NCBI GenBank assembly: GCA_020438905.1
Contig: JAGQTQ010000053.1
Span: forward strand, 1-38,458
Length of the DNA: 38,458 nucleotides
Source of the DNA: Mycobacterium sp.
Lineage (GTDB): Bacteria > Actinomycetota > Actinomycetes > Mycobacteriales > Mycobacteriaceae
Direction: 5' to 3'
The notes under the pieces were generated by a model, which was not told where the DNA came from, made no database searches, and saw nothing but the letters and a program-made list of their open reading frames with translations. Below, in pieces: positions 21,658 through 30,496 of the stretch. Position numbers and translations under genes: made by a program. Each line of letters starts with the position of its first letter. Position 1 is the first letter of the stretch.

Positions 21658-23941
<2,284 letters not shown>

Positions 23942-23945
<4 letters not shown>

Positions 23946-24814
23946 CGATCACCACCAACACCAAGGCGGCCGTTCTGGCCGAGGCGCTTCCGTGGCTCAA
24001 GGCGCTGAACGACAAGATCGTGGTGGTCAAGTACGGCGGCAACGCCATGACCGACGACAAGCTCAAGGCAGCGTTCGCCGCCGACATGGTGTTCCTGCGC
24101 AATGTCGGTATCCACCCCGTCGTGGTGCACGGGGGCGGACCGCAGATCAGCGCCATGCTCAAAAGACTCGGCATCCCCGGAGAGTTCCGGGGCGGCTTCC
24201 GCGTCACCACACCCGAGGTGCTCGACGTGGCCAGAATGGTGCTCTTCGGCCAGGTCGGCCGGGAGTTGGTGAACCTTATCAACGCCCACGGCCCCTACGC
24301 GGTCGGCATCACCGGCGAGGACGCCCACCTTTTCACCGCGGTGCGGCGCAGCGTCTCGGTCGACGGTGTGGACACCGACATCGGCTTGGTCGGCGACGTC
24401 GAAACGGTCAACACCGAGGCGATCCGCGACCTCATCACGGCCGGACGGATCCCGGTCGTCTCGACCATCGCCCCCGATAGCGGCGGCGTGGTCTACAACA
24501 TCAACGCCGACACCGCGGCCGCCGGTCTCGCCGCCGCGCTGGGCGCGGAGAAGTTGCTGATGCTCACCGACGTGGAAGGGCTCTACACCCGGTGGCCGGA
24601 TCGCGACTCTTTGGTCAGCGAGATCGACACCGCTGCTTTGACCCAACTGCTGCCGAGGCTCGAAGAGGGCATGGTGCCCAAGATCGAGGCCTGCCTGCGG
24701 GCGGTGGGGGCCGGGGTGCCCAGCGCCCACGTCATCGATGGACGGGTCGAGCACTGTGTGCTCGTCGAGTTGTTCACCGACGAGGGCACCGGCACGAAGG
24801 TGGTGCACGGGTGA
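23942..24814 (+). CDS. argB: Acetylglutamate kinase
   Basis: A 290-residue amino-acid kinase that phosphorylates N-acetylglutamate. Glycine-rich phosphate-binding motifs are [12 protein letters not shown] and [12 protein letters not shown]. Further family blocks are [10 protein letters not shown], the [20 protein letters not shown] segment and [12 protein letters not shown]. The hexameric forms of this enzyme are inhibited by arginine; a ~20-residue N-terminal helix ([18 protein letters not shown]) typical of them is present, so feedback control is likely. It is coupled to argJ (ATGA) and argD (GTGA). Confidence 0.97.
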
Positions 24815-26004
24815 GCGAACCCAACCTGATCGAACCCAATCTCCTTGAACGCTGGCGGGCCGTCATGATGGACAACTACGGCACCCCGCCGCTGGCACTG
24901 GCCGAAGGGGACGGAGCCCTCGTCACCGACGTCGACGGCAGGACCTATCTGGATCTGCTCGGCGGTATCGCGGTCAACGTTCTCGGACACCGCCACCCGG
25001 CCGTCATCGACGCCGTCACAGCCCAACTGGGTATCCTTGGACACGTCTCCAACCTCTATGCGACCGAACCCGGTGTCGCGCTCGCCGAGGCACTGGTCGG
25101 GCGTCTGGGGGCACCGGCACGTGCCTTCTTCTGCAACTCCGGAGCCGAGGCCAACGAGGTAGCCTTCAAAATCACCCGTCTGACCGGCCGCACCAAAATC
25201 GTTGCCGCACAGGGTTCTTTCCACGGTCGCACCATGGGTGCCCTGGCGCTCACCGGTCAGCCCGCCAAGCAGGAGCCCTTCAGACCGCTGCCCGGATACG
25301 TCACCCACGTTCCCTACGGGGACGTCGCCGCGCTGGAGGCTGCGGTCGCCGACGACACCGCCGCGGTGTTTCTCGAACCGATCATGGGGGAGGGCGGCGT
25401 GGTCGTCCCGCCGGACGGATATCTGGCGGCGGCGCGGTCGATCACCAGCCGTCGCGGCGCGCTGCTGGTCCTCGACGAGGTGCAGACCGGGGTCGGGCGA
25501 ACCGGCGACTTCTTCGCCCATCAGCACGACGGGGTCACTCCGGACATCGTCACCCTCGCCAAGGGACTGGGCGGGGGACTGCCGATCGGGGCCTGTCTGG
25601 CCGTCGGCGCAGCAGCCGATTTGATGACGCCGGGGCTGCACGGCAGCACATTCGGCGGGAATCCGGTCTGCGCAGCCGCCGCTCTGGCCGTGCTGCGGGT
25701 CCTCGACGAGGAGGATCTGATCAACCGCGCCGGTGAACTCGGCAAGACGCTGCGCCGCGGCATCGAGTCGATGAAGCATCCCGTGATCGATCATGTGCGG
25801 GGGCGTGGCCTGCTGTGCGGCGTGGTGCTCGGCGCGCCTCAGGCCAAAGCGGTCGAGACGGCCCGCGACGCGGGATTCCTGGTCAACGCCGCAGCCCCTG
25901 ACGTCATCCGGTTGGCGCCGCCGCTGATCATCACCGGACGGCAGGTCGACGACTTCCTCGCCGCGCTGCCCGGGATTCTCGATTCCGCGGGAGCGCCGGC
26001 ATGA
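24811..26004 (+). CDS. argD: Acetylornithine aminotransferase
   Basis: A 397-residue class III PLP aminotransferase converting acetylglutamate semialdehyde to N-acetylornithine. Motifs are [18 protein letters not shown], the [16 protein letters not shown] block, [14 protein letters not shown], and the PLP lysine in [17 protein letters not shown] 24811 overlaps the argB stop and is preferred to the much longer open frame inside argB. Its stop overlaps an ATG (ATGA at 26001-26004), the usual arrangement with argF; here that ATG opens only a 10-codon frame. Confidence 0.96.
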
Positions 26005-26034
26005 CTCCCCGGACCCTGCGGGAGCCCCGATGAC
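25987..26034 (+). repeat. Imperfect direct repeat at the argD-argR junction
   Basis: GCGGGAGC-GCCGGC-ATGAC (25987-26005) recurs as GCGGGAGC-CCCG-ATGAC (26018-26034). One copy spans the argD stop, the other the argR start. The interval between them is only 12 bases. It may be a footprint of the event that removed argF, or a local duplication. Confidence 0.6.
26001..26033 (+). pseudogene. 10-codon frame in the argF position (possible argF remnant)
   Basis: Between argD and argR, where mycobacteria normally carry argF (ornithine carbamoyltransferase, ~307 residues), there is only an ATG-to-TGA frame coding [10 protein letters not shown]. It starts in an ATGA overlap with argD and ends in an ATGA overlap with argR (26030-26033). 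Thus both coupling junctions of an argF gene are kept without its body. The first residues loosely recall the R-F/L-L-R-D start of mycobacterial ArgF, but this is too short to prove descent. It could also be a coupling mini-ORF. Confidence 0.4.
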
Positions 26035-26530
26035 CCGGTCGCCGGAGGTTGCCGGCACCCGGGTGGGACGACAGGCCCGCATCGTCGCGATCCTGTCGTC
26101 GAGTCCGGTGCACAGCCAGACCGAGCTCGCAGCCCTGCTGGCCGATGAGGGGATCGAGGTCACCCAGGCAACGCTGTCGCGTGACCTTGAGGAACTCGGC
26201 GCGGTCAAGTTGCGCGGCGCCGACGGCGGGAGCGGGGTGTACGTGGTTCCCGAGGACGGCAGCCCGGTACGCGGGGTGTCCGGTGGCACCGAACGAGTGG
26301 CCCGGCTGCTCGGCGAGTTGCTGGTGTCCACCGACGCCAGCGCCAACCTCGCTGTGTTGCGCACCCCGCCCGGAGCAGCCCACTACCTCGCCAGCGCCAT
26401 CGACCGCGCGGCCCTGCCGGAGGTGGTGGGCACCGTCGCCGGCGACGACACCATCCTGGTGGTCGCCCGCGAGCCGATGACCGGCGCCCAATGCGCCGCC
26501 ATGTTCGAGAACATCCGTCAGCACAGTTAA
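26030..26530 (+). CDS. argR: Arginine repressor
   Basis: A 166-residue ArgR. The N-terminal winged helix has [20 protein letters not shown] and [14 protein letters not shown]. The C-terminal oligomerisation and arginine-binding domain includes [17 protein letters not shown] and [16 protein letters not shown], with the GDDT arginine-binding signature. With arginine it forms hexamers and represses arg genes, most directly at the ARG-box-like sites before argC. ATG 26030 overlaps the mini-ORF stop. The C-terminal RQHS tail arises from the 21-base duplication at 26519-26553. Confidence 0.96.
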
Positions 26531-26553
26531 GTAAGTCCTCAGCACAGTCAAGT
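26519..26553 (+). repeat. 21-base-period imperfect duplication across the argR stop
   Basis: CAGCACAGTTAAGT (26519-26532) is repeated as CAGCACAGTCAAGT (26540-26553) with a 21-base period. The first copy encodes the last residues and stop of argR; the second precedes the argG ribosome site. Confidence 0.65.
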
Positions 26554-26566
26554 GAAGGAGACAACC

Positions 26567-30496
<3,930 letters not shown>

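Follow-up and report, generated by a model that had tools for sequence, protein, structure and literature searches.

When argF, the gene for ornithine carbamoyltransferase (OTC), is deleted from an otherwise intact arginine biosynthesis cluster, where does the citrulline used by ArgG come from? The question is raised by the window, the whole 38,458-nt stretch of DNA analysed here. It belongs to a draft genome of 3.69 Mb in 189 contigs, rated 84.9% complete, whose nearest named relatives are Mycobacterium or Mycolicibacterium.

An arginine cluster without argF

The arg genes of the window all lie on the plus strand. The features of the cluster are listed below, with dN/dS calculated against the related locus L065 and NCBIfam cut-offs in brackets.

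21660..21673, + strand: TGCATAACAATGCA, a palindrome resembling an ARG box, upstream of argC; matched exactly in the window
21685..22719, + strand: argC, TIGR01850 356 bits (cut-off 234), dN/dS 0.17
22716..23945, + strand: argJ, TIGR00120 367 bits (cut-off 298), dN/dS 0.08
23942..24814, + strand: argB, TIGR00761 265 bits (cut-off 151), dN/dS 0.04
24811..26004, + strand: argD with a GTG start, NF002874 643 bits (cut-off 457), dN/dS 0.16
26001..26033, + strand: 10-codon mini-frame in the place of argF, read from the sequence, with an ATGA overlap at both ends
26030..26530, + strand: argR, NF002880 277 bits (cut-off 200), dN/dS 0.04
26567..27766, + strand: argG, TIGR00032 493 bits (cut-off 268), dN/dS 0.03
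27767..27872, + strand: argG-argH spacer containing a long hairpin; folding energy of -49.8 kcal/mol for 27764-27880 (z -2.38)
27873..29285, + strand: argH, TIGR00838 606 bits (cut-off 280), dN/dS 0.09

The sequence-only reading held that argC, J, B, D, R, G and H are intact and that argF is absent between argD and argR. This is borne out: the seven frames have no internal stops and each passes the NCBIfam cut-off for its own name. Genes, order and overlaps are those of the mycobacterial argC-J-B-D-F-R-G-H cluster, but without argF, and with argD joined to argR via the mini-frame. Among the window and the loci L065 and L066 the arg genes are under purifying selection (dN/dS 0.03-0.18 where defined); the L066 locus begins inside argB, and the constraint on argC and argJ is seen for the window and L065. 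The palindrome upstream of argC, which we take to be an ARG box, has identical letters in L065 and differs by one letter in L122. The hairpin in the 106-nt argG-argH spacing has its arms at about 27779-27797 and 27828-27846; the exact 17-nt arm occurs in two of 242 loci, both of them copies of the same argG-argH site.

The argD-argR junction

The TGA stop of argD lies at 26002-26004 and the ATG start of argR at 26030; the mini-frame shares ATGA with the former (26001-26004) and with the latter (26030-26033), and the expectation that ATGA coupling was kept after the loss of argF thus holds at both ends. The same arrangement is found in L065 and L066 (ArgD 90-91% identical), with a 9-codon frame and ATGA at both ends. 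Their junction measures 25 nt against 28 nt in the window and its inner letters have diverged, while the 3-nt difference leaves the mini-frame open in all three genomes, each with different codons.

Draft assemblies can collapse short repeats, and the short junction might be ascribed to an assembly error that skipped argF. Such a misassembly is very unlikely, to the point of being barely credible, because L065 and L066 were assembled separately and carry the same kind of ATGA-flanked junction with a 3-nt difference in length and diverged letters; the comparison across relatives speaks strongly against it. Reading the 10-codon frame as what an in-frame loss left of argF is not supported, since the frame matches the argF of L067 no better than shuffled letters do and each of the three genomes has different codons in it. 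Derivation of the mini-frame from the L067 argF (whole or its two ends) or from the junction repeat of L077 likewise found no support, as the three junctions did not score clearly above shuffles.

Where argF was lost

A match to ArgF (L067 query, E 1e-80 or better) is present in 380 of 396 sampled Mycobacterium genomes. The gene neighbourhood was followed in 82 loci, namely 80 named loci collected around ArgR, the window and the locus of genome G368 (L200): argF is present in 74 and absent in six, while in two (L127 and L139) the contig ends before argF would be reached. On a FastTree tree of ArgD, ArgR and ArgG the six argF-less loci fall at four places: the window with L065 (HK-STAS-ACTI-10, G208) and L066 (HKST-UBA35, G257), at support 1.0; L081 (AQU-06, G390/G399); L122 (Umea_bin-02178, G398/G209); and L200. 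The genomes concerned are rated 94% (G208), 83% (G257), 100% (G209), 72% (G390) and 81% (G368) complete, and all 18 named loci of the window's clade are titled as MAGs.

Reading four separate losses off this tree was rejected, since the supports around L081 are weak (0.67 and 0.23) and an AU test permits L081 and L122 to be one loss (p=0.078); the ArcB proteins of these two genomes are sisters (support 0.998). A clade tree with six outside rows gives three changes, for the window's group, L081 and L122, and a single common loss for all five argF-less rows of the clade is rejected (AU p=0.0001). We conclude that argF was lost at least twice in the window's clade and at least three times when G368 is counted, with four places on the best tree.

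In L081, L122 and L200 the argD stop overlaps the argR start directly, as GTGA, ATGA and ATGA, respectively. Where relatives within the clade still carry argF, the gene often has stop/start overlaps at both ends, and in L095, an argF-carrying relative of the argF-less L122, the 8-base GCATGACC stands on both sides of the gene. Because of these overlaps and short flanking repeats, argF may have been deleted between short repeats that contain ATGA and lie at either end of the gene, an event that would leave argD and argR joined at stop/start overlaps. As a separate observation, the argF-carrying loci L073, L074, L077 and L070 contain one to four units of a repeat of about 30 nt, GCCGCTTGCGCGAAGAGCGA, at the ATGA junction between argF and argR; the unit in L070 differs by one letter.

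The carbamoyltransferases of the window genome

In the assembly, the pair of OTC Pfam domains is found at two places, ArcB on contig C180 and PyrB on C111, the latter with a dihydroorotase-like gene and carA nearby. No third gene with both Pfam carbamoyltransferase domains was found in this assembly (84.9% complete), nor did the L067 ArgF query give a match at E 1e-80 or better. The whole-genome search for carbamoyltransferases that the sequence-only reading pointed to thus yields PyrB and ArcB only. The ArcB-type OTC is encoded in an arcD-arcA-arcB-arcC operon (G000:C180, about 81712-86446), where arcB sits between the arginine deiminase and carbamate kinase genes, downstream of the arginine-ornithine antiporter. 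It scores 431 bits with TIGR00658 (cut-off 281) and 650 with NF002470 (cut-off 545). Both arcD (TIGR03810) and arcC (TIGR00746) score above their NCBIfam cut-offs, whereas arcA passes the subfamily model NF002381 (525 of 414) and fails the arcA equivalog TIGR01078 (462 of 489). Sequence family, arc-operon context and the Glu residue discussed below all place ArcB among the catabolic-type OTCs. With no ArgF found and argC, J, B, D, G and H open and named, the genome has the features of a single-OTC genome, and ArcB is the only enzyme found in it that is predicted to be able to make citrulline from ornithine. In G208, G257, G209 and G390, too, ArcB is the sole TIGR00658 match above the cut-off, and the clearest individual example of argF loss with ArcB is G209, with its completeness rating of 100%.

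Could argF simply reside in a part of the genome that was not assembled? The 189 contigs and the completeness of 84.9% leave room for a missing gene. However, three genomes share the junction and none of them shows argF, the chance of missing it jointly being about 0.0015 (by hand) if the misses are independent at 15%, 6% and 17%, and G209 lacks argF in spite of its 100% rating. We therefore regard an unassembled argF as highly improbable. Relatives with the same junction and argF elsewhere, a situation that would overturn the notion of a deletion, were looked for without success: in G208 and G257, which share the junction, there is no argF match. Only slightly less improbable is a carbamoyltransferase of another family. 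Other such enzymes exist, for example acetylornithine carbamoyltransferase, and in G368 a carbamate kinase gene (region L240 182-3842, on G368:C537) has neighbours resembling what we presume to be the allFGH oxamic transcarbamylase cluster. Against this, ArcB and PyrB were the only genes found in the window genome to carry both Pfam carbamoyltransferase domains, and the best NCBIfam model of ArcB is ornithine carbamoyltransferase, with the acetylornithine and putrescine carbamoyltransferase models far below their cut-offs.

Loss of argF and presence of ArcB

ArcB (E 1e-120 or better) is found in 47 of the 396 sampled genomes, including one partial ArcB (G346) and two of a type 58% identical to that of the window genome (G024 and G354). 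Among the 381 genomes with a full ArgR, it occurs in five of six argF-less genomes versus 42 of 375 argF carriers (Fisher P=1.3e-4). This comparison leaves out nine of the 16 genomes without ArgF, which are also without ArgR (G003, G015, G059, G256, G259, G302, G311, G332 and G374), and the partial-ArgR genomes G070 (argF-less) and G305. Counted by event, ArcB is present in three of four losses (P=0.005), or in two of three if L081 and L122 represent one loss (P about 0.035, by hand).

The ArcB-positive losses of argF all fall within one clade, and the view from within that clade weighs more than the genus-wide Fisher test because genomes are not independent. The window's clade comprises 19 loci, 18 of which were tested for ArcB (L069 was left out). 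Here argF was lost in five of eight ArcB-positive and in none of ten ArcB-negative genomes (Fisher P=0.0065); counting the window's group once raises the value to 0.036, and treating L081 and L122 as one loss as well gives about 0.095 (by hand). None of the 18 genomes lacks both OTCs. A phylogenetic pair test finds two pairs on well-supported branches, too few to decide, with ArcB in the same direction in 0.8 on average and never in the opposite one. Eight of the ten ArcB-negative genomes match sampled ones rated 73-97% complete and two are unrated; some of the ArcB absences may be assembly gaps.

A probable role of a catabolic-type enzyme in biosynthesis

In the lineage of the window, argF was deleted and ArcB probably took over the biosynthetic citrulline step. 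With argF gone from the cluster, the citrulline for ArgG would be made by ArcB, the only OTC found. When arginine is short, ArcB would run forward and form citrulline from ornithine and carbamoyl phosphate; while arginine serves as a source of ATP, it would run in reverse and turn citrulline into ornithine and carbamoyl phosphate. The presence of ArcB would have made argF dispensable, and the loss could then have happened more than once. That ArcB makes citrulline in the cell is something we infer from sequence. Citrulline is presumably made from ornithine because the remaining arginine genes are under purifying selection, and ArcB itself is constrained in the window genome, L065 and L066 (dN/dS 0.03-0.05). 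More tentatively, and with rather less confidence than the takeover itself, one may envisage that the breakdown operon has become part of synthesis in one Mycobacterium clade: an unmodified catabolic-type OTC would work two ways, and on two or more occasions (three by the best tree) argF would have been cut out between ATGA overlaps serving as hinges that drop a gene without uncoupling its neighbours.

The sequence of ArcB also provides points that count against a takeover. The Glu at P. aeruginosa position 105 (aligned to 1dxh) is kept in the ArcB of the window genome and in all 33 aligned ArcBs (31 of the 47 found plus G396 and G397). In the P. aeruginosa enzyme E105 is tied to a cooperativity that hinders the biosynthetic direction, and catabolic OTCs have been described as not running biosynthesis in vivo, owing to poor, cooperative binding of carbamoyl phosphate (PMC9506655). 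Glu105 alone is not decisive, because the same account reports that Glu put into the E. coli OTC created no cooperativity (PMC9506655). Among the aligned ArcBs no position fully separates the five of argF-less genomes from the 27 of argF carriers (G354, of the 58% type, was left out). Adaptive change in ArcB was rejected: near-diagnostic positions also occur in some argF carriers, and dN/dS reveals no clear effect of argF absence, nor is ArcB clearly more constrained in argF-less pairs. The ArcBs of the window genome and the argF-carrying G397 are 97% identical, the ArcAs 77%; spread of ArcB by recombination was discarded since dS is similar (0.60 and 0.80), so that constraint fits better. A search of the 14-kb arc region for the argC-upstream palindrome gave a single match with three mismatches, as expected by chance, and this match does not lie upstream of arcD. 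Regulation of the arc genes by ArgR was dismissed accordingly, there being no ARG-box-like site above chance in this region.

The alternative with the most substance is auxotrophy, with the organism dependent on outside arginine or citrulline. ArcB would then act in breakdown only, ArcD would import arginine, ArgG and ArgH would re-close citrulline coming from ArcA or from uptake, and argCJBD would serve ornithine only. The catabolic type of ArcB with its Glu105 would suit this arrangement, as would the antiporter and the other arginine deiminase (ADI) genes, and so would G368, in which argB to argH are retained although no OTC was found. The other arginine genes, however, have kept open frames under constraint, as seen for argC and argJ too when the window is compared with L065, and auxotrophy alone would not predict losses on ArcB-positive branches with none in the ten ArcB-negative genomes of the clade. 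On balance we consider auxotrophy unlikely. The sequence-only reading had left the source of citrulline between an enzyme encoded elsewhere, a replacement and auxotrophy; another carbamoyltransferase is the best supported of these, with ArcB of the arcDABC operon as the candidate, and auxotrophy finds less support.

G368 (81% complete) has lost argF, and no OTC was found in it, while argB to argH are kept. Of its argJ, the arg contig carries just the final 81 residues, and a longer part sits at one end of a different contig; the assembly may be disturbed here. It has a related carbamate kinase (47% identical), with no deiminase or OTC on the same contig. The lack of an OTC in G368 reflects either an assembly gap or a real auxotroph.

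Relation to known systems

The proposed ArcB takeover is of a kind already known. Streptococcus gordonii resembles the window genome in that argCJBD and argGH are kept, the anabolic OTC is absent and an ADI operon with ArcB is present; it is described as lacking ArgF and as using ArcB for arginine synthesis (PMC4571851, PMC9239276). The present case differs in that it concerns Mycobacterium, in which argF was lost from a cluster that nearly all relatives keep, and in that it is known from sequence alone. The Staphylococcus aureus ArcB1 is similar to the proposed role, as an OTC of a catabolic operon that makes citrulline for arginine synthesis, but S. aureus still has argF and its growth depends on expression of the arc operon (PMC9239276). 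The closest solved structures to the window ArcB are those of P. aeruginosa ArcB (1dxh, 586 bits, and 1ort, 583 bits, over residues 3-334); the Glu at position 105 is common to the window ArcB and 1dxh, while 1ort shows Gly. P. aeruginosa differs in that it also has ArgF; as noted above, catabolic OTCs are described as not running biosynthesis in vivo (PMC9506655).

An argF-deleted M. tuberculosis is an arginine auxotroph that is rapidly sterilised in mice, as stated in the abstract of PMC8220418. In our literature searches no title on argF loss in Mycobacterium stood among the matches listed, and its recurrence in this genus together with the joining of argD and argR was likewise absent among them. 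The natural loss of argF with retention of ArcB offers a ready-made test of whether a catabolic-type OTC can carry biosynthesis alone, and a missing argF is insufficient to call arginine auxotrophy in draft genomes.

Other observations in the genus

G332 is a genome of one contig, rated 100% complete, in which the cluster is interrupted between late argD and early argH (L247 4619-9854, on G332:C1); argF, argR and argG have no match, and the space between argD and argH is taken up by about 3 kb carrying Mce/MlaD-like genes. Several arginine genes seem to have been lost naturally here. In G045, G089 and G134 the best ArgF match has an E of about 1e-91 to 1e-108, compared with the usual 1e-160 or better, perhaps owing to frameshifted or cut argF genes. 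The ArcB of G400, the genome of L070, is found as four partial pieces on C447, C522, C394 and C723 that are 89-97% identical to that of the window genome, and this draft may mix more than one ArcB copy or strain. The more divergent ArcB type, which shares 58% identity with the protein of the window genome, is encoded at L241 7006-10222 (G354) and on G024:C106; in G354 it is accompanied by ArcA (44%) and ArcC (46%).
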